DNA of 32,338 bases. Origin: a virus. Of this stretch, positions 5,650 through 31,029 are shown one piece after another. Within the stretch, counting starts at the first letter, position 1. Each line of letters opens with the position of its first letter. The stretch is taken from IMG/VR virus record IMGVR_UViG_3300028025_006318, positions 1 to 32,338 of that record; one strand, 5' to 3'. Position numbers and translations under genes: made by a program. The notes under the pieces were generated by a model, which was not told where the DNA came from, made no database searches, and saw only the letters and a list, made by a program, of their open reading frames with translations.

Positions 5650-5676
5650 AAGAAGGGTTATTTACCCTTCTTTTTT
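5650..5676. terminator. Bidirectional terminator between virion cluster and clpP
   Basis: A 9-bp stem AAGAAGGGT/ACCCTTCTT with a 5-nt loop has T-rich tracts on both strands. It ends both the plus-strand cluster and the minus-strand clpP transcript; the clpP stop codon lies inside the hairpin. Confidence 0.85.
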
Positions 5677-6338
5677 GATTTTACGACCTCGTCAATGATA
5701 CCATACTCCAAAGCTTGGTTACTATCTAACCACAAATCTCTACTAGCATCAATTTTAACTTGTTCAGGGTCTTTCCCACAGAACTCACCAAGTAAACCAA
5801 ATAGAATATCATTCAATTTAGCCCACTCTCTCATTGTGATTTCCGCATCTTGGATGTTACCCACAGCACCACCCGAAGATTGGTGTAGCATTGTTCTAGA
5901 GTACTTCAAAGAGCTTCTTTTTCCTTTGGTACCTGCTCCCAACAATACAGACCCCATAGAAGCCGCCATTCCTGTGTTCACGGTTCTGATATCACAAGAA
6001 ATGTAATTCATTACATCAACCATAGAAAGTCCTGATTTCACACTTCCACCTGGACTGTCAATGTGCATTGTAATGTCAGCCTTGTCACTATTGTCCATGA
6101 ACATCAATTGTGCCTGTACAATTGTGGACATTCTATCATCGACAGGACCAGCAACCCAAATGATTCTGTCCCTCATCAATCTTGAAAAGATGTCAATCTG
6201 AGTAGCTCTCATCTCTCTTTCTTCAAGAATGTAAGGAGTCATAGACGACTGAATTTGATTTGAGAAGTTGTGAAGATCTAATGATCCTTTACCCAAGTGA
6301 TTTACGTAATAGTTTTGAAAGTCTTGTCCGATGTTCAT
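5658..6338 (-). CDS. clpP: ClpP-like serine protease subunit
   Basis: The 226-residue protein is a ClpP homologue of normal length. All three catalytic residues are visible: Ser127 in GMAASMGS, His152 in MLHQSSGG and Asp201 in SRDLWLD. The IDSPGGSV substrate-binding strand is at residues 93-100. ClpP forms a tetradecameric chamber in the cytoplasm and needs an AAA+ unfoldase; a ClpC-type partner with a ClpP-docking loop is encoded at 26290-28305. The N-terminal 40 residues (MNIGQDFQNYYVNHLGKG...) are longer than in mature ClpP and may be processed. Phage ClpP-like proteins also act as prohead proteases, so a capsid-maturation role is the main alternative. The lysine-rich C-terminus is unusual. 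Confidence 0.94.
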   Translation of the reverse strand: MNIGQDFQNYYVNHLGKGSLDLHNFSNQIQSSMTPYILEEREMRATQIDIFSRLMRDRIIWVAGPVDDRMSTIVQAQLMFMDNSDKADITMHIDSPGGSVKSGLSMVDVMNYISCDIRTVNTGMAASMGSVLLGAGTKGKRSSLKYSRTMLHQSSGGAVGNIQDAEITMREWAKLNDILFGLLGEFCGKDPEQVKIDASRDLWLDSNQALEYGIIDEVVKSKKKGK

Positions 6339-7013: not shown

Positions 7014-7085
7014 GGACCCGTAGCTCAGAGGAAGAGCAGCGCTCTCATAAAGCGAAGGTCGGGATATCATGATTCCCCGGGTCCA
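7014..7085 (+). tRNA. tRNA-Met (CAT), abnormal T-loop
   Basis: Acceptor GGACCCG/CGGGTCC pairs fully, the D-arm is GCTC...GAGC, and the anticodon loop CTCATAA gives CAT. The T-arm is odd: GGGAT...TTCCC encloses ATCATGA instead of the universal TTCRANN. CCA is not encoded. It may be elongator Met, or Ile if the C is modified to lysidine. Confidence 0.8.
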
Positions 7086-18845: not shown

Positions 18846-18878
18846 AAAAAATCCCTTGAATATTCGAGGGATTTTTAA
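18846..18878. terminator. Bidirectional terminator
   Basis: AAATCCCT...AGGGATTT with an inner GAA/TTC pair has A/T tracts on both sides. It ends the minus-strand repeat protein gene at 18875 and would also act on the plus strand. Confidence 0.75.
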
Positions 18879-19387
18879 TTTTTGATAAGGTTTATGATTT
18901 TTTTTATTTTCGTTTTATTTTCTCTGACACCTGCTTTGAGAGAAAGAATTTTTTCTACTTCGAATCGTAAAAGTTCTTTGGAATTTGTTGAGGACACTCC
19001 ATGTTTGAGAACCTCTTCCACCCCATGGGATCTGTGATACGCATCCAAGTGAGTTGAGGACACCCCGCGTTTGAGGACCTCTTCCACCCCGCCGCCTTTT
19101 CTCCGGCTGCTTCCATCTGTTGAGGACACCCCGCGTTTGAGTACCTCTTCCACCCATTCCGCTATAACAGGTTCATATTCTTTCCGTTCCATGCCAAACA
19201 ACGGAAAAAAATCATTGAAGAATGAGTATCTCCACCATAGAACTCCTTCACTTTTTAGTTCCAAATACCAATACTTATTCCCACGGTCTATGAACCAAAT
19301 CGAGTTATTATCATCCACAATAATTTCAGCCTGACCTAAATCTTGGTCTAACTTTTTGAAAATGATTTTTTTAAGCCTTTCGTGCAT
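18875..19387 (-). CDS. Hypothetical protein with three VEEVLKRGVSST repeats
   Basis: The 170-residue protein has an alpha/beta N-terminal domain (residues 1-76) rich in Trp and Tyr (SIWFIDRGNKYWYLEL), then three tandem 22-residue repeats near residues 79-144. Each has a constant 12-residue core VEEVLK(R/H)GVSST and a variable 10-residue part, followed by a basic helix. The repeat is exactly 66 bp, and core differences are mostly in third codon positions, so the unit is under coding selection. Function unknown; the repeats could be a modular linear-motif array or an adhesion/binding platform. A strong Bacteroidota-type promoter lies upstream (19410-19439). Confidence 0.78.
   Translation of the reverse strand: MHERLKKIIFKKLDQDLGQAEIIVDDNNSIWFIDRGNKYWYLELKSEGVLWWRYSFFNDFFPLFGMERKEYEPVIAEWVEEVLKRGVSSTDGSSRRKGGGVEEVLKRGVSSTHLDAYHRSHGVEEVLKHGVSSTNSKELLRFEVEKILSLKAGVRENKTKIKKIINLIKN
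18987..19155 (-). repeat. Three 66-bp constant/variable repeats inside a gene
   Basis: On the plus strand, units begin GTTGAGGACAC at 18987, 19053 and 19119. Each has a 37-38-bp conserved core and a 28-bp unrelated segment. The period divides by three and the cores translate to the same peptide. Confidence 0.88.
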
Positions 19388-19439: not shown

Positions 19440-19500
19440 AATTATCAAAAGTTTTTTCACTTAACAAGAACATAGCCATTTGATAATCTTAAAATCAAGG

Positions 19501-19531
19501 TTTGTCGGCAGGTCCCTCCTAATTATTGTTG
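19501..19531 (+). promoter_or_regulatory. Bacteroidota-type promoter of the TonB receptor operon
   Basis: TTTG (19501-19504), 19-nt spacer, TATTGTTG (19524-19531; one mismatch to TAnnTTTG), 14 nt before the ATG at 19546. Confidence 0.5.
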
Positions 19532-19545
19532 ATAAAAATTAAGGC

Positions 19546-22032
19546 ATGATTAAGAATCTATTTTTTTTACTTTTGTTTCCATTAACGGTGTTTTCACAAC
19601 AAAAACAAATAACCATCAATGGAACAACAAAATCAAAAACGGAAGACATTTACTTCGCTCACGTAACATTTCAAGATACTGATGGTAATAAATTCACAAC
19701 AATTTCTGATGAAAATGCTAAGTACAGTATCCCTTTGAAAGAAGGAACTTATGAAGTAAAAGGAACTTACATTGGATACAAAGATTTCGTAACGACAATT
19801 ACTGTAACCACCGTTACTAACTTGGATATTATTTTTGAGGCGGCCGATACGGAGTTAAACGAAGTTTTAGTTCGAGGAACTGCTCAAAAAGTCACAGATA
19901 TATCGGTTATGAAATCAATACGGAATAATATTGTCGTATCAGATGGATTATCAATAGAATTTATTAAGAAGACCCCTGATAGAAACTTGGGAGACGCTTT
20001 GAAGAGAGTTAGTGGTGTTACAATTCAGAATGAGAAATTCGTTTTGGTTAGAGGACTCGCTGACAGATATAATTCAGCATTATTAAATCAAACCCCATTA
20101 CCTTCTACGGAACCTGATAGACGGGCATTCTCATTTGATATTATACCAACATCCTTGATTGATAATATCATGGTGTCAAAATCGTTTTCTGCAAACCAAC
20201 CAGGTGATTGGAGTGGAGGTTTGGTACAAGTTACGACAAAGGAAGTATCCGACAATTTTTTGGATTTATCTTTTGGTACTGGATTCGGATCTGTTTCAAG
20301 TTTGGAAGATTTTAGAATGGTGAAATCAGTTCCATTTCCATCAACATTTCCTTCAACTTACAAATACCGAATAAGTGGTAATGGAGACAAAAGATTATAT
20401 ACCAAACAAATCGTAAATCCAACCGAAAATAGTTTTCAATCAATACCGAATTTGAATGGAGGACTTTCCTTTGGTTATGTAAAAAACAAATTCAATACAT
20501 TATTCAGTTCAACAATAAGAAATCAATATACTCTCAACAACATTGAGAGAAAGGATTATCAATCCTCCACTGAGTTGGCATATGATTATAATGATAGATT
20601 ATACACACAAAGATTTTCCACAAACGGATTGTTGAATCTAACATACTTGGGTAAAAACAAATATAGTTGGAAAACTTTGGCAAACTTTCAGAAGGAAAGT
20701 TCTTACCTAACAAGAAGTGGTGAAAACTATGACAACGTACAAGATGTATTGAGTAATGCGTCAAACCATATAAATAACGTGGTAATCAACTCCCAAGTTG
20801 ATGGTAATATTGAAACTTTTGATTTCAATTTCGGATATAACTTCATTTTCAGAGAACAACCAGATTACAGAATAAATCCAATCACAAAATCTTTGGGAGT
20901 AAACGAACCGTATTCTACCGCTTGGAGAGACACCTATAGATTTTGGAGTGTTATGGACGAAAACTCATTCAACGGAAACGTGAAAAAAGATTTGGGTAAA
21001 TTCAAAGTCGGTGGTGGATACTTGAAAAGAATGAGAGGGTTTAACGCAAGAGTGTTCCGATATCAAACAACCGACTTGATGGATGAAATAACCAACAATA
21101 CCGATAGATATACTGCGGACTTTGATTTGGGTAATGTTTATTCCATGTATGAAAATGAAATCGGAAAGTGGAAAATAAACACGGGTATAAGAGGTGAATA
21201 CAATTTGTTCGATGTAGAGACCGCAGATTTTAGTGGACAAAAAGTGAAAGTTGATAGAACCTACTTGGATATCTTACCTTCTTTGAACCTTTCTTATAAC
21301 TTAGATAAAACAAAATATAGATTTTCATTAAGTAAAACTTTGGCAAGACCTGAATTTAGAGAAGTCTCCAATTTCGCATATTATGATTTTGTAAGAAACG
21401 CACAAATATTAGGTAATTCTAATTTGGAAAAAACGGACATATACAATGTCGATTTGAAATATGAATTATACCCTTCGACCTCTGAAAATGTGTCGGTTTC
21501 ATTTTTTGGTAAAAATTTCATAAACCCAATCGAACAAGTTGTTGCCGATGGATCAGTTCCATCAAACTTACTTTTAACATACACAAATCCTGAATCCGCT
21601 ATCGTATATGGGGTTGAAATGGAAGTGAGAAAAAGAATAAATGGATGGTTCGATTTTTATACCAACACTTCAATTATGAATTCTGAAGTTGATGTCAATG
21701 GTATAAAAAGACAACTACAAGGGCAATCCAATTATGTAATAAATTCAGGTGTCAACTTTAACAAGAAAAATAATACTTTGAATTTGACATATAATAGAAT
21801 TGGCGAAAGAATTGCGGCGGTCGGATTTCAAGGATATCCCGACATTTTTGAAAATAGTAGAGACGTATTAGACATTACATTCTTACGTAAATTACCAAAA
21901 GGAGAATTGAAATTGGCAATTTCAGACATCTTCGCACAACCATCAATAAACTATCAGAGATTATCAAATCGTAACTTAATAAACACAAATAACGAAACAA
22001 CAGTTTCATTAACCTTAAATCTAAAATTATGA
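19546..22032 (+). CDS. TonB-dependent outer-membrane receptor
   Basis: The 828-residue protein has a signal peptide (MIKNLFFLLLFPLTVFSQQ, cleavage after about residue 18), a carboxypeptidase-regulatory-like/CarbopepD_reg domain at residues about 20-100, a plug domain at residues 120-225 (GDALKRVSGVTIQNEKFVLV, RGLADRYNSALLNQTPLP, DNIMVSKSF, GDWSGGLVQVTTKE) and a 22-strand-type barrel to the C-terminus (TVSLTLNLKL, hydrophobic end). Such receptors import iron complexes, vitamins, glycans or phosphate-linked ligands using TonB energy. The next gene, a lipoprotein overlapping by 4 nt, is its usual partner. A full-length host-like TonB receptor between phage genes is unusual; its AT-rich composition looks like its neighbours'. 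Confidence 0.95.
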   Translation: MIKNLFFLLLFPLTVFSQQKQITINGTTKSKTEDIYFAHVTFQDTDGNKFTTISDENAKYSIPLKEGTYEVKGTYIGYKDFVTTITVTTVTNLDIIFEAADTELNEVLVRGTAQKVTDISVMKSIRNNIVVSDGLSIEFIKKTPDRNLGDALKRVSGVTIQNEKFVLVRGLADRYNSALLNQTPLPSTEPDRRAFSFDIIPTSLIDNIMVSKSFSANQPGDWSGGLVQVTTKEVSDNFLDLSFGTGFGSVSSLEDFRMVKSVPFPSTFPSTYKYRISGNGDKRLYTKQIVNPTENSFQSIPNLNGGLSFGYVKNKFNTLFSSTIRNQYTLNNIERKDYQSSTELAYDYNDRLYTQRFSTNGLLNLTYLGKNKYSWKTLANFQKESSYLTRSGENYDNVQDVLSNASNHINNVVINSQVDGNIETFDFNFGYNFIFREQPDYRINPITKSLGVNEPYSTAWRDTYRFWSVMDENSFNGNVKKDLGKFKVGGGYLKRMRGFNARVFRYQTTDLMDEITNNTDRYTADFDLGNVYSMYENEIGKWKINTGIRGEYNLFDVETADFSGQKVKVDRTYLDILPSLNLSYNLDKTKYRFSLSKTLARPEFREVSNFAYYDFVRNAQILGNSNLEKTDIYNVDLKYELYPSTSENVSVSFFGKNFINPIEQVVADGSVPSNLLLTYTNPESAIVYGVEMEVRKRINGWFDFYTNTSIMNSEVDVNGIKRQLQGQSNYVINSGVNFNKKNNTLNLTYNRIGERIAAVGFQGYPDIFENSRDVLDITFLRKLPKGELKLAISDIFAQPSINYQRLSNRNLINTNNETTVSLTLNLKL

Positions 22033-23225
22033 AAAAACTATTAACAATCTTACTAGCATTAGGACTTTTCAGTTGTGAAAGAGAACTGGGAGGAGATGAA
22101 GGGCCAATCAATGTCCCAACCACAACAACTCTAACGGGTAATATAAACACGACAACAACTTTAACATCGGATAAAGTGTGGACTCTTAAAGGGTATGTTT
22201 ATGTAACAGACGGAGCAAAACTTATTATTCAACCTGGTACTACCATAGTTTCAGACGTGGCTGAGAAGGGAGCTTTATGTATCGAAAGAGGTTCCCAAAT
22301 TATTGCGGAAGGGACTCAATCAAAACCTATCATATTCACCTCTGGTAGACCTGAGGGACAACGATCTCCTGGTGATTGGGGTGGTATAGTAATTTTAGGT
22401 AGAGCGAAGACAAACCGTTCTTCTGAACCTACAATCGAAGGTGGAATCGGAAGACCTTATGGAGGAACAAATGATTCTGATAACAGCGGTGTAATGAGAT
22501 ATGTTAGAATTGAATATGCCGGAATCGCAGCGATGCCGAATTCTGAAATCAACGCACTTACTTTAGGTGGTGTAGGAAACGGAACAATTCTTGAAAACAT
22601 CCAAACAATATATGCTAACGATGACGCATTCGAATTCTTTGGAGGAACCGTAAATGGTAAAAATCTTTATGCATTCGCAACCGCAGATGATGATTTCGAC
22701 TTTGACTTTGGTTATACAGGAATGATTACAAACGGAGTGGCAAAAAGAGACCCACAATTTGTAGATAGTGGTGACGCAGGTAATGGTATTGAATGTGATA
22801 ACGACGGAACTGGCTCAGGGGCACAACCAGTGACACATCCAAAACTTTTCAATATGATTTTAGTTGGACCAAATGTTAGTTCGGCTTTAGCAAACCACAA
22901 TCTCGGATTGAGATTCAGAAGAGCAACCCAATTCACTATGAAAAATAGTGTTGTTTGGGGATGGATGAAAGGTGGATTGAGTTTGGAAAGTAATGAAACC
23001 GCACAATTTGTTAAAGACGGAGTATCTGTATTTGAAAATAACTCAGTTGGTACATTCAATCCTACTCTGAATTTTATTAGTAGAGCAACAACAATACTGA
23101 CAAGTGACCAACTTAAGACTTTGGCACTTTCAAAAAGTAATAAGGAAATTGATGTTGTAATACCTGAATTGGCAACCCCGAGTTGGACTAATGGTTGGAC
23201 AAGATTTCCTTCAAAAGGAAACTAA
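22029..23225 (+). CDS. Surface lipoprotein partner of the TonB receptor
   Basis: The 398-residue product starts MKKLLTILLALGLFSC, a lipobox with Cys16, so it should be an outer-membrane lipoprotein. The body has the repetitive pattern of a family seen next to TonB receptors in Bacteroidota: VWTLKGYVYVTDGAKLIIQP, ERGSQIIAEGTQSKPIIFTS, GDWGGIVILGRA, IEGGIGRPYGG, VRIEYAGIA, TLGGVGNGTILENIQTIYAN, FEFFGGTVN, DDDFDFDFGYTG. The repeated short strands and turns suggest a right-handed beta-helix/solenoid. It overlaps the receptor stop codon by ATGA, indicating translational coupling. Its ligand is unknown. Confidence 0.9.
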   Translation: MKKLLTILLALGLFSCERELGGDEGPINVPTTTTLTGNINTTTTLTSDKVWTLKGYVYVTDGAKLIIQPGTTIVSDVAEKGALCIERGSQIIAEGTQSKPIIFTSGRPEGQRSPGDWGGIVILGRAKTNRSSEPTIEGGIGRPYGGTNDSDNSGVMRYVRIEYAGIAAMPNSEINALTLGGVGNGTILENIQTIYANDDAFEFFGGTVNGKNLYAFATADDDFDFDFGYTGMITNGVAKRDPQFVDSGDAGNGIECDNDGTGSGAQPVTHPKLFNMILVGPNVSSALANHNLGLRFRRATQFTMKNSVVWGWMKGGLSLESNETAQFVKDGVSVFENNSVGTFNPTLNFISRATTILTSDQLKTLALSKSNKEIDVVIPELATPSWTNGWTRFPSKGN

Positions 23226-23230
23226 AAAAA

Positions 23231-23257
23231 AAGGGAGTCAATGACTCCCTTTTTTTG
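23231..23257 (+). terminator. Terminator of the TonB/lipoprotein operon
   Basis: AAGGGAGT/ACTCCCTT stem-loop followed by a T-run; the facing A-run may also stop transcription of the tmRNA on the other strand. Confidence 0.87.
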
Positions 23258-23264
23258 TTGAAGG

Positions 23265-23676
23265 TGGAGTAGCGCAGATTCGAACTGCGGTCTTGCTCAT
23301 CTTGACAATAAATGACTACACGTTTAGGTCAAGGTTTGTTATACCTTCCGAAATATTTGGTTCCTATTTTGACATCGTTACCAACAACTGTGTCGAGTTC
23401 ACTTATACTAAGGTAGTCCTCTGAACGTGACCTTTGATACGCTTTGGGTGGTATCACACCTTGGAGGGCTTCTGTTCCTAGGTTATATGCCCATTCGACC
23501 TGACGTTGTATCAACTAATTAAGCAGTTACAACAGACGCTTCTCTAGTTAAACCTAGAGCAGACATCTTAGCAAGAGTATTGCCGGTTACTTTCTTCACC
23601 ATAGATTTAAGTCATAGATGAATTCTGACTACGTGCCACTTACCCCCAACAACGCCAATCTATACCTTTCTACCCC
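23265..23676 (-). ncRNA. ssrA: Phage-encoded transfer-messenger RNA (tmRNA)
   Basis: On the minus strand the ends form a tRNA-like domain: 5' GGGGTAG (23676-23670) pairs with 3' CTACTCC (23272-23266), and CGCAG TTCGAAT CTGCG is a perfect T-arm. The 3' region has the tmRNA-type CTAAACGTGTAGT stretch. Near the 5' side AGTCA/TGACT forms a hairpin, then AAGTAACC-GGC precedes a resume codon. The tag ORF (23584-23519) is 21 codons, beginning GNTLAKMSALG and ending SVVTA before TAA TTAG. tmRNA releases stalled ribosomes and tags the peptide for proteolysis. The 412-nt length is normal; the long tag is not. The 3' CCA is not fully encoded (A-C-C-T). Confidence 0.88.
23519..23584 (-). other. tmRNA tag-peptide reading frame
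   Basis: Resume codon GGC (23584-23582) follows the AAGTAACC context and the frame ends TAA. The 21-residue tag ends SVVTA rather than the usual ALAA. It contains a hairpin CTCTAG-GTTTAA-CTAGAG. The resume position is inferred by similarity to Bacteroidota tmRNAs (AATAACTGGC-type). Confidence 0.65.
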
Positions 23677-26289: not shown

Positions 26290-28305
26290 TTACCGTCCTT
26301 TCTTGATTACTTTGACTACTTCATCTTCGACTTTAATCACATAGGTTTTGCCTGGTATGATTTTGTCGGTCAGAACTTCTTCAGATAATAAGTCTTCAAC
26401 CTTATCTTGAATCGCTCTCTTGAGTGGTCTAGCACCGTATACCTCATCATATCCGATTTTTGATAGGTAATTCAAGAGTGATTCATCGTAAGTAATCTTA
26501 TACTTCATTTCTTCAAGACGCTTCATCAACTTTTTAAGTTCGATGTCGGTGATTTTCTTGATGTCATCTTGTGATAGAGAATTGAAAACGATAGTATCGT
26601 CGATACGATTGATGAATTCAGGAGAGAAGAAATTTTTCATTTCTTTCATCAAGATTTCCTTCTTCGCTTCTTCGTTACTATAGGTATTGTTGGAGAATCC
26701 AATACCAGTTCCAAAGTCTTGTAATTTCTTCACACCAAGATTGGAGGTCAAGATGATGAGGGTATTCTTGAAGTTAATCTTTCTACCCAAACTATCTGTA
26801 ACGTGACCATCGTCCAAGATTTGAAGTAATACTGTAAACACATCTTTGTGAGCTTTTTCAACCTCATCAAACAAGATGACAGAGTAAGGCTTGTTCTTAA
26901 CTTTTTCAGTCAACAATCCACCTTCTTCGTACCCAACGTAGCCTGGAGGTGCTCCAACCAATTTGGATACGGTGTGTTTTTCTTGATATTCGGACATATC
27001 AACACGGATTAACGAATCTTCACTACCGAACATTTCTTTCGCTAGTTGTTTCGCTAAGTGAGTTTTACCCACACCTGTGGAACCCAAGAATACGAACGAA
27101 CCAATTGGACGATTTGGATCTTTGATACCAAGTCGATTTCTCTTGATGGACTTCGCGACCTTGATTACCGCAGCATCTTGACCAATTACGGTTCCAACAA
27201 TATGTTTGTCCAAATTGATAAGTGCTTTAGTATCGTCAACCGACATTCTGCTAACAGGGATTTTAGTCATGTTTGATACCACATCATAGACATCTTCCAA
27301 GTTAATCTTTTGTTTGTCTTTGGACATTTGTTCTTCAAACTTTTGTTTTTCTTGTTCCAATTTGTCCAACAACTTTTTCTCTTTGTCTCTTAGTTGTGCA
27401 GCTTGTTCGTAATTCTGTTTCTTAACAACATCCATTTTCTGTTGTTTAAGTTCCGCAGCTTTACGTTTCAAGTCTTCAATCACTTCAGGAACTTTAAGTT
27501 CGGTCTGCATCTTAGCTCCAACTTCATCCAAAATATCGAATGCTTTGTCAGGAAATTCACGGTCGGTAATGTATCTGTCCGCCAACTTCACACAAGTTTC
27601 GATTACTTCATTTGAATAAATTACCTTGTGGTATGTTTCGTATTTATCTCGAACGTTGTTCAAGATTTGAATTGTTTCTGCCACGGTAGAAGGTTCCACA
27701 ATCACTTTCTGAAATCTACGCTCCAACGCTCCATCTTTTTCAATGTGCTTTCTGAATTCATCCAAAGTTGTCGCACCGATTACTTGAATCTCACCACGAG
27801 ATAATGCCGGTTTGAAGATGTTAGAACCATCCATAGTTCCTGATGAATTACCTGAACCAACAAGAGTATGGATTTCATCAATGAACACGATAATGTTAGG
27901 ATTCGCTTGAAGCTCTTCAATGATTACTTTCATTCTTTCTTCGAATTGACCACGGTATTTTGTACCAGCGACAACTGAAGTTAAGTCCAAATTCACAAGT
28001 CGTTTATCCAACAAATTACGTGGACATTCACCACTCACAATTTTCATTGCTAGACCTTCAGCAATAGCAGTCTTACCACAACCAGGTTCTCCGATAATGA
28101 TTGGGTTATTCTTTTTTCTCCGTGAAAGAATCTGGGCAATTCTCAAGATTTCTCTATCCCTTCCGATTACGGGATCTAGCTTACCGTCTTCGGCAAGTTT
28201 ATTCAAATCTCTACTGAAATTGTCTAGTACAGGAGTCAAGCTGTCCCCAGCGGACTTCTGTTTTTTACTCATCATTTTGTCTTCGTCGTCCATTAAGTCG
28301 TTCAT
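26290..28305 (-). CDS. clpC: ClpC-like AAA+ unfoldase lacking the N-domain
   Basis: The 671-residue protein has two AAA+ modules: Walker A GEPGCGKT (72-79) and Walker B VFIDEIH (140-146), then Walker A GSTGVGKT (408-415) and Walker B ILFDEVEKA (477-485). Between them, residues about 285-312 form a UVR motif (MDVVKKQNYEQAAQLRDKEK), typical of ClpC. The loop LQDFGTGIGFSNN has IGF at 535-537 where ClpC/ClpA dock onto ClpP. The usual N-terminal Clp_N domain (about 140 residues) is absent; only 30 residues precede the first AAA+ core. It should form a hexamer that unfolds substrates into ClpP. It is divergent from the UVR gene at 28485 with palindromes between. Confidence 0.95.
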   Translation of the reverse strand: MNDLMDDEDKMMSKKQKSAGDSLTPVLDNFSRDLNKLAEDGKLDPVIGRDREILRIAQILSRRKKNNPIIIGEPGCGKTAIAEGLAMKIVSGECPRNLLDKRLVNLDLTSVVAGTKYRGQFEERMKVIIEELQANPNIIVFIDEIHTLVGSGNSSGTMDGSNIFKPALSRGEIQVIGATTLDEFRKHIEKDGALERRFQKVIVEPSTVAETIQILNNVRDKYETYHKVIYSNEVIETCVKLADRYITDREFPDKAFDILDEVGAKMQTELKVPEVIEDLKRKAAELKQQKMDVVKKQNYEQAAQLRDKEKKLLDKLEQEKQKFEEQMSKDKQKINLEDVYDVVSNMTKIPVSRMSVDDTKALINLDKHIVGTVIGQDAAVIKVAKSIKRNRLGIKDPNRPIGSFVFLGSTGVGKTHLAKQLAKEMFGSEDSLIRVDMSEYQEKHTVSKLVGAPPGYVGYEEGGLLTEKVKNKPYSVILFDEVEKAHKDVFTVLLQILDDGHVTDSLGRKINFKNTLIILTSNLGVKKLQDFGTGIGFSNNTYSNEEAKKEILMKEMKNFFSPEFINRIDDTIVFNSLSQDDIKKITDIELKKLMKRLEEMKYKITYDESLLNYLSKIGYDEVYGARPLKRAIQDKVEDLLSEEVLTDKIIPGKTYVIKVEDEVVKVIKKGR

Positions 28306-30276: not shown

Positions 30277-31029
30277 ATGGCTTTTAATTATTATATAGCT
30301 TCTTCGTGTAATTCGGTTACGAATTATTACATAAAGATAGAGACAGAATTAATCGAGGGAAAAATTTATGACCTCGTTATTCCTGGCGCAAATGGGTGCT
30401 ACACAATTGAATCTGGTTTTGATACTCCATTAGCCCTTACCGCGACAATATTCAATGGTCCTTGGAATACTTGTATTGAGTGTCTTGGAGATGTAACTCC
30501 AACACCAACAGCGTCTAATACACCTACACCTACTGTAACACCAACTACAACTCAGACTCCAACGAATACATCTACAAAAACTCCGACTCCAACACCAACT
30601 AATACACAAACACCAACTAACACCGCAACACAAACTCAAACACCAACTAATACTGCTTCGGCAACAAGAACACCGACACCAAGTGTAACGTCAACTCAAA
30701 CACAGACACCAACAAATACCGCAACAAGAACTCCGACTCCGAGCATCACTTCATCACCTACAGGCACCGCAGGAGTAACTCCAACTCCAACTGGAACACC
30801 AGCATCGACACCAACAACAACTCCTACACCAAGTGTAACTCCGTATCTTGTTATTGAAGTGAACCAACAATATGAATATACTATTGGTATGTTAGGATCA
30901 TTTAGTGGAGGAACCGCACCGACAGGATCAACAGTTCCATATCAAGTCATGACTAGTGAAAGTGGAAATGGAGTAATTGTACAACTAAACGCAATTTCTT
31001 TAGGAGGATTCCAAGGATTAAATAATTAA
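30277..31029 (+). CDS. Thr/Pro-rich putative virion or fibre protein
   Basis: The 250-residue protein has a small N-terminal domain (residues 1-72) with several Cys and aromatics, a long stalk of Pro-Thr repeats at residues about 74-190 ([20 protein letters not shown] and similar), and a C-terminal beta-rich domain ([20 protein letters not shown]). Such PT stalks extend binding domains from virion surfaces, and Thr-rich stalks can be O-glycosylated in Bacteroidota hosts. It may be a decoration or tail-fibre protein. The repetitive DNA could vary in length by slippage. Confidence 0.78.

Follow-up and report, generated by a model that had tools for sequence, protein, structure and literature searches.

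A phage-borne TonB-dependent receptor and lipoprotein pair as a probable phosphorus-acquisition operon

Analysis of the virus record IMGVR_UViG_3300028025_006318, which was examined in its entirety (the window, 32,338 bases of IMG/VR), showed a TonB-dependent receptor (TBDR) and a partner lipoprotein (LIP) encoded by two coupled genes, which probably constitute a phage phosphorus-acquisition operon under host PhoB control. A first-pass annotation, made from the letters alone, had proposed that the phage could boost uptake of a limiting nutrient. This could be narrowed to phosphorus because of the gene context of the bacterial homologues, the shared Pho-box-like promoters, and the lipid-remodelling-type genes present in some of the phage operons. 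The proposal builds on the genes themselves, their coupling and conservation, the purifying selection acting on them, their wide distribution among phages, the promoter layout they have in common, and the phosphorus-related surroundings of their bacterial homologues. The model derived from this would add PhoB binding, induction, surface location, ligand identity, and a benefit to the phage. When the phage infects a Bacteroidota cell short of phosphate, PhoB of the host would bind an array of 11-bp repeats ahead of the genes and switch the operon on; the beta-helix LIP, anchored at the cell surface, would capture or present a phosphorus compound; the TBDR would import this compound using host TonB energy; and phage DNA synthesis would then not be limited by phosphorus.

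The earlier description of a complete 828-residue receptor with signal peptide, regulatory domain, plug, and barrel was borne out by the open reading frame (ORF) and its Pfam domains. The signal peptide was MIKNLFFLLLFPLTVFSQ. The plug (PF07715) and barrel (PF14905) scored above the Pfam cut-offs, and the regulatory domain, a CarboxypepD_reg-like N-terminal domain (PF13715, CarbopepD_reg_2), scored slightly under its cut-off of 32.2 (30.6 bits, E 3.5e-7). TIGR01782 matched only below the model cut-off, and a search of the window record for PF00593, the SusC-type barrel, gave no match. The AlphaFold2 (AF2) model, with a predicted local distance difference test score (pLDDT) of 86, comprised a plugged barrel and the N-terminal domain, and Foldseek matched it to known TonB-dependent transporters (TBDTs) at 1e-24. 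Residues 99–104 (LNEVLV) resemble a TonB box and, read by eye, fit the LxEVVV consensus of 69 sequences.

The LIP gene overlaps that of the TBDR by ATGA at position 22029, an overlap retained in nearly all phage copies, and its lipobox cysteine (Cys16) was invariant in 77 homologues, in agreement with its annotation as a translationally coupled lipoprotein. LIP is likely surface-exposed, because the lipid-anchor cysteine is followed by acidic residues (CERELGGDE), as is typical of Bacteroidota surface-lipoprotein signals. Searches with LIP against Pfam, PHROG, and NCBIfam gave no match. Against PDB structures its model found none below E 0.01, only weak matches to beta-helix proteins (pectate lyase, tailspike), and a PDB sequence search returned no relative informative on the ligand.

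The regions upstream of bacterial TBDR homologues were rich in (C/G)(G/T)TAACATT repeats with an 11-bp period, which is the usual geometry of PhoB sites. With a position weight matrix (PWM) for the Pho-box-like site trained on 63 of these bacterial upstream regions, the site before the window TBDR (Table 1) ranked second among 64,612 positions on both strands. In other phages, the site before the TBDR ranked first in its own locus in close to half of the cases, typically 44–58 bp before the ATG. The median score was 3.5 for phage TBDR upstream regions vs. −15.8 for 399 other phage intergenic upstream regions (p = 1.7e-22, calculated on sequences that are not independent). A second motif, TA(A/G)TTATTG, was present in 24 of 61 phage upstream regions, where 0.004 would be expected per 90 bp. 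Its distance from the end of the array was usually 16 or 27 bp in phages (16 + 11n), 16 bp being the commonest in bacteria. Bacterial sites scoring above 15 were mostly located before genes for TBDRs, LIP, O/P-porin-like proteins, and LpxH/PlcP-like metallophosphoesterases. From the 11-bp repeats and this regulon context, we infer that the array motif is a PhoB site. A sigma-70 promoter scan was at chance level and uninformative here; the suggestion that the pair has its own promoter stood as regards the Pho-box-like array and the element TAATTATTG.

Copies of the pair in Chitinophagaceae and Sphingobacteriaceae (TBDR up to 44% and LIP mostly 50–66% identical) adjoin genes for Pit (PF01384), PhoU_div, Porin_O_P, and an OmpR-type response regulator with histidine kinase (PhoBR-like). 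Across 395 genomes sampled evenly from the phylum, the best TBDR match was 43% identical. Two genomes from the order of L159, a pond metagenome-assembled genome ("Cytophagaceae bacterium"), contained LIP at 71–73%. One of the two, G759, was the nearest chromosomal relative found: its copy of the pair (TBDR 60%, LIP 70% identical) is on a contig of 668 kb and has a Pho-box-like site scoring 18.5. Next come a phosphodiesterase-like gene and PitA, and in the vicinity are genes for alkaline phosphatase and for phosphonate degradation (TIGR03276 and TIGR03364, both above cut-off). In a TBDR tree including G759 (L363, contig C2), it grouped with the phage subclade L039/L040/L043/L049/L066 (approximate likelihood-ratio test, aLRT, 95). 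This position beside a phage subclade implies repeated or two-way transfer between these bacteria and phages, and suggests gene exchange between phages and Cytophagales. Strict monophyly of the phage TBDRs, seen in the first sampling, was broken once G759 was added. Chitinophagaceae copies are longer and more loosely arranged than those of phages, but the G759 copy (846 aa, 402 aa, 1-bp gap) is as compact as the latter; phage-specific miniaturisation was therefore rejected and the compaction regarded as inherited. Judged by the bacterial relatives and the TBDR tree, the hosts of these phages are probably Bacteroidota near the order of G759.

Among IMG/VR relatives, at least 95 stretches encode relatives of the TBDR and at least 138 encode relatives of LIP; short records named "Bacteriophage sp." also matched the TBDR. 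A search for the pair in other huge phages, as the first-pass annotation had suggested, was productive, many of the contigs being T4-like (Gp23) and up to 326 kb long. Approximately 34 loci have the gene order of the window (Clp ATPase – 202 aa – M20 – 348 aa – pair – 115 aa – HAD – DUF2061 – M23), and the pair has other neighbourhoods in the remainder. Fifty pair-bearing records, all classed as linear and probably fragments, included 16 with the Gp23 capsid and 15 with a tail sheath (PF04984), 23 having either. Terminase_6C had been tried as a phage hallmark and matched none of the 50, so Gp23 and the sheath were used instead. Ratios of nonsynonymous to synonymous substitution rates (dN/dS) relative to the closest relatives of the window were 0.05–0.07 for the TBDR and LIP, with a maximum of 0.096 among the relatives compared, which points to strong purifying selection on the pair (dN/dS about 0.05). 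LIP was 72–89% identical between phages with capsids only 30–34% identical, which argues that the pair moves between distant phages.

The pair occupies a cargo slot next to the transfer-messenger RNA (tmRNA) gene, and this slot varies among relatives. L239, approximately 95% identical to the window on both flanks, lacks the pair: window position 19444 is joined there to about 23202. Recent insertion of the pair at the tmRNA was rejected, since L239 retains the LIP 3′ end and the terminator, indicating loss there. The end codons of LIP are AGG TTT CCT TCG AAA GGG AAT TAA in L239 vs. AGA TTT CCT TCA AAA GGA AAC TAA in the window; because all differences in the remnant are synonymous, L239 probably lost the pair by deletion of an intact gene. 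In L008-type relatives, the pair is in the same slot in reverse orientation. Of 35 distinct slots, seven contained the pair (two of them with an additional Oar-like TBDR), three only other TBDRs, one a glycosyltransferase and a metallophosphoesterase, and 24 none of these. Other outer-membrane receptors in the slot (L246:4983-8231, L283:4140-7202, L289:3796-6345, and the slots of L250 and L252) were Oar-like OMP_b-brl_4 types and one PF00593 TBDR. Upstream of the alternative TBDR of L283, a Pho-box-like site scored 12.1, and upstream of that of L289 the score was 5.3 or −3.6, varying with the length of upstream sequence taken.

Directly after LIP and on the same strand, a GT2 glycosyltransferase and a metallophosphoesterase were encoded in seven distinct phage loci (L023, L028, L042, L048, L051, L129, and L136, the metallophosphoesterase of L048 being cut by the contig end). 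The glycosyltransferase and PlcP/LpxH-like metallophosphoesterase in a cargo slot without the pair were those of L253:6972-8424. PlcP together with a glycosyltransferase is the combination reported for phosphate-saving lipid remodelling (PMC4796936), and the phage genes are possibly a lipid-remodelling module, with PlcP assigned at the family level only. More tentatively, and with slightly more doubt than confidence, we propose that Bacteroidota jumbo phages carry a host-Pho-responsive programme that would combine import by TBDR and LIP with lipid remodelling by the glycosyltransferase and PlcP-like enzyme, be exchanged among distant phages and Cytophagales, and be swapped in and out of the tmRNA-side slot.

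Several observations weigh against PhoB-controlled phosphorus acquisition. About 38% of the phage copies scored at or below 0 upstream, and the upstream regions of L014, L033, and L038 had no convincing box. The PWM was trained on bacterial promoters of the same gene family, and the phage upstream regions are non-independent. As a positive control, pstS failed: PF12849 (PstS-like) genes in five bacterial genomes had no box, although these may not be true pstS genes, because plant-associated Bacteroidetes have been reported to be without PstSABC (PMC8115612). A loose Pho-box pattern applied genome-wide in two genomes did not rise above the control, and only its best matches were at TBDR/LIP, with one site before an O/P porin. 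The window carries no other recognised phosphorus gene. Finally, the homology of LIP to Fjoh_0546, the lipoprotein of a Flavobacterium johnsoniae cluster discussed below, was derived from context and fold.

Other functions were also considered. LIP might mainly promote extracellular phosphatase activity in the manner of Caulobacter ElpS, with the TBDR secondary; F-form lipoproteins have been reported to be 31–36% identical to ElpS, whose secretion accompanies alkaline phosphatase activity (PMC8115612, PMC2996285). We consider this unlikely, since in phages the TBDR is conserved as well as LIP, to which it is coupled, and LIP has no catalytic assignment. Import of a carbohydrate or another carbon source was proposed for the SusC-like gene of the megaphage Mar_Mega_1, the TBDRs ("SusC") reported in Mar_Mega_1 and LR745206 having been taken as carbohydrate importers (PMC9723777), and the predicted LIP beta-helix is weakly similar to pectate lyases and other polysaccharide-active proteins. 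For the window pair such a role is improbable: there is neither a SusD partner nor a PF00593 match, the bacterial neighbours are phosphorus genes, and the promoters are Pho-box-like.

TBDRs are known phage receptors, and related phages hold different TBDRs in the same slot, as would be expected if the phage TBDR displaced or masked the receptor of competing phages. Such receptor replacement or superinfection exclusion, also raised in the first-pass annotation, gained no positive evidence and is scarcely likely, given that the plug, TonB-box-like motif, lipoprotein partner, and starvation-type promoter, which a decoy would not need, are all conserved, and that purifying selection is strong. TBDRs are frequent in host genomes, but an assembly chimera or host contamination almost certainly does not explain the pair: both borders, where a chimeric break had been considered, are shared by independent contigs from different metagenomes (L001, L002, L003, L004, and L073), L239 carries a deletion remnant, and instead of a near-identical host locus with host flanks, the closest bacterial copies found were 60–73% identical (TBDR 60%, LIP 70–73%) and without phage flanks.

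Coordinates of the operon and of the surrounding backbone are given in Table 1. The pair does lie between typical phage genes, as first annotated, its neighbours in the window including ClpP, a Clp ATPase, M23 and M20 peptidases, and 14 tRNAs called by ARAGORN. Phage structural genes were looked for in the 32-kb window and none were found; Gp23 is present on its close relatives (142-kb and 326-kb contigs). The GC content of the pair (0.33–0.40) is in line with that of neighbouring genes, consistent with its description as AT-rich like them, and the terminator attributed to it corresponds to the bidirectional hairpin. The tmRNA, uncalled by ARAGORN and absent from the first-pass annotation, is also present in the relatives L008, L014, and L253.

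Table 1. Positions of the operon, its control elements, and backbone genes in the window.
Feature	Position	Strand	Basis and remarks
TBDR, 828 aa: signal peptide, CarboxypepD_reg-like domain, plug, beta-barrel	19546-22032	+	Complete ORF; Pfam, AF2, Foldseek
LIP, 398 aa, predicted right-handed beta-helix	22029-23225	+	Complete ORF; AF2 pLDDT 92
Pho-box-like array, three 11-bp units: CTTAACAAGAA CATAGCCATTT GATAATCTTAA	19460-19492	+	PWM; 53 bp before TBDR ATG; core conserved in relatives
Likely Bacteroidota-type −7 promoter element: TAATTATTG	19520-19528	+	TA(A/G)TTATTG motif; spacing from array
Bidirectional intrinsic hairpin terminator: AAAAAAAGGGAGTCAATGACTCCCTTTTTTT	23226-23256	both strands	Sequence and scan; retained in pair-less L239
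tmRNA gene	23262-23676	-	Rfam RF00023, 57.3 bits; borders cargo slot; backbone, outside operon
Small membrane-protein-like backbone gene, 115 aa	18485-18832	-	Left border of cargo slot; same neighbour in relatives with and without pair
Conserved backbone gene, 348 aa	23738-24784	+	Right border of cargo slot; same neighbour in relatives with and without pair
ClpP protease gene	5658-6338	-	Phage-encoded
ClpA/C-like ATPase gene	26290-28305	-	Phage-encoded

A ClpP-like gene (L381:10010-10750) is also found close to the TBDR of LR745206. A fifteenth tRNA at 7014-7085 (+) was detected by Rfam (47.5 bits) and is not in the ARAGORN list. The 170-aa protein at 18875-19387 (-) contains the repeat VEEVLK(R/H)GVSST three times; L239 and L240 do not have the same repeat region, and the gene looks like a variable repeat gene. 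The 250-aa protein at 30277-31029 (+) has long Thr/Pro-rich repeats, and repeated DNA at 30.4–30.8 kb is common to the window and L239 in several registers.

Most of what is known about the control of infection by phosphorus comes from marine cyanophages and their periplasmic pstS. If the phosphorus reading is correct, Bacteroidota phages would counter the same shortage at the outer membrane, using transporters of a class that more often serves phages as receptors, and would read the starvation signal of the host itself. The reading would also suggest which motif PhoB recognises in Chitinophagaceae, Sphingobacteriaceae, and Cytophagales, link jumbo-phage ecology to phosphorus limitation, and replace the unexplained "TonB receptor in a megaphage" with a phosphorus hypothesis that can be tested. 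Within the open-licence literature, with few preprints, the megaphage report (PMC9723777) was the only one found on phage TBDRs, and what appears to be new is the occurrence across Bacteroidota phages of a phosphorus-type TBDR–lipoprotein module behind Pho-box-like promoters of the bacterial type, in some cases together with genes of the lipid-remodelling type.

Among the closest known systems is the phosphate-utilisation cluster PUSIV of F. johnsoniae (PMC8115612), in which a TBDT with PF07715, PF13715, and PF14905 (Fjoh_0545) is followed by a pectin-lyase-type lipoprotein (FII, Fjoh_0546). Upon depletion of inorganic phosphate, these phoBR-linked genes were induced by log2 8.0 and 9.9, respectively, and PlcP was also strongly induced (PMC8115612). 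The window pair has the same domain set (PF13715 slightly below cut-off), a partner with a predicted pectin-lyase-like beta-helix, and phosphorus-linked bacterial homologues, which are likewise near phoBR-like genes and an O/P porin; it differs in its phage location, in lacking the other genes of the cluster, and in being shorter than the Chitinophagaceae copies. The megaphages Mar_Mega_1 and LR745206 likewise have a TBDR in a huge phage genome, and LR745206 also encodes a protein resembling LIP, with 42% identity across 77% of its length, but the megaphage TBDR is only 26% identical to that of the window, and a Pho-box-like site looked for upstream in LR745206 was not found. The SusCD-like and BtuBG-like pairs of Bacteroidota also couple an outer-membrane transporter to a surface lipoprotein; their partners are SusD-like or beta-propeller proteins, whereas LIP is a predicted beta-helix outside Pfam, in a record without PF00593. 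Cyanophage pstS (PMC10976474) is, like the pair, an accessory and patchily distributed phage phosphorus-uptake gene; it is under host PhoBR, a control that we infer for the pair, and encodes a periplasmic binding protein in cyanobacteria, whereas the pair would act in Bacteroidota as an outer-membrane TBDR with its lipoprotein.

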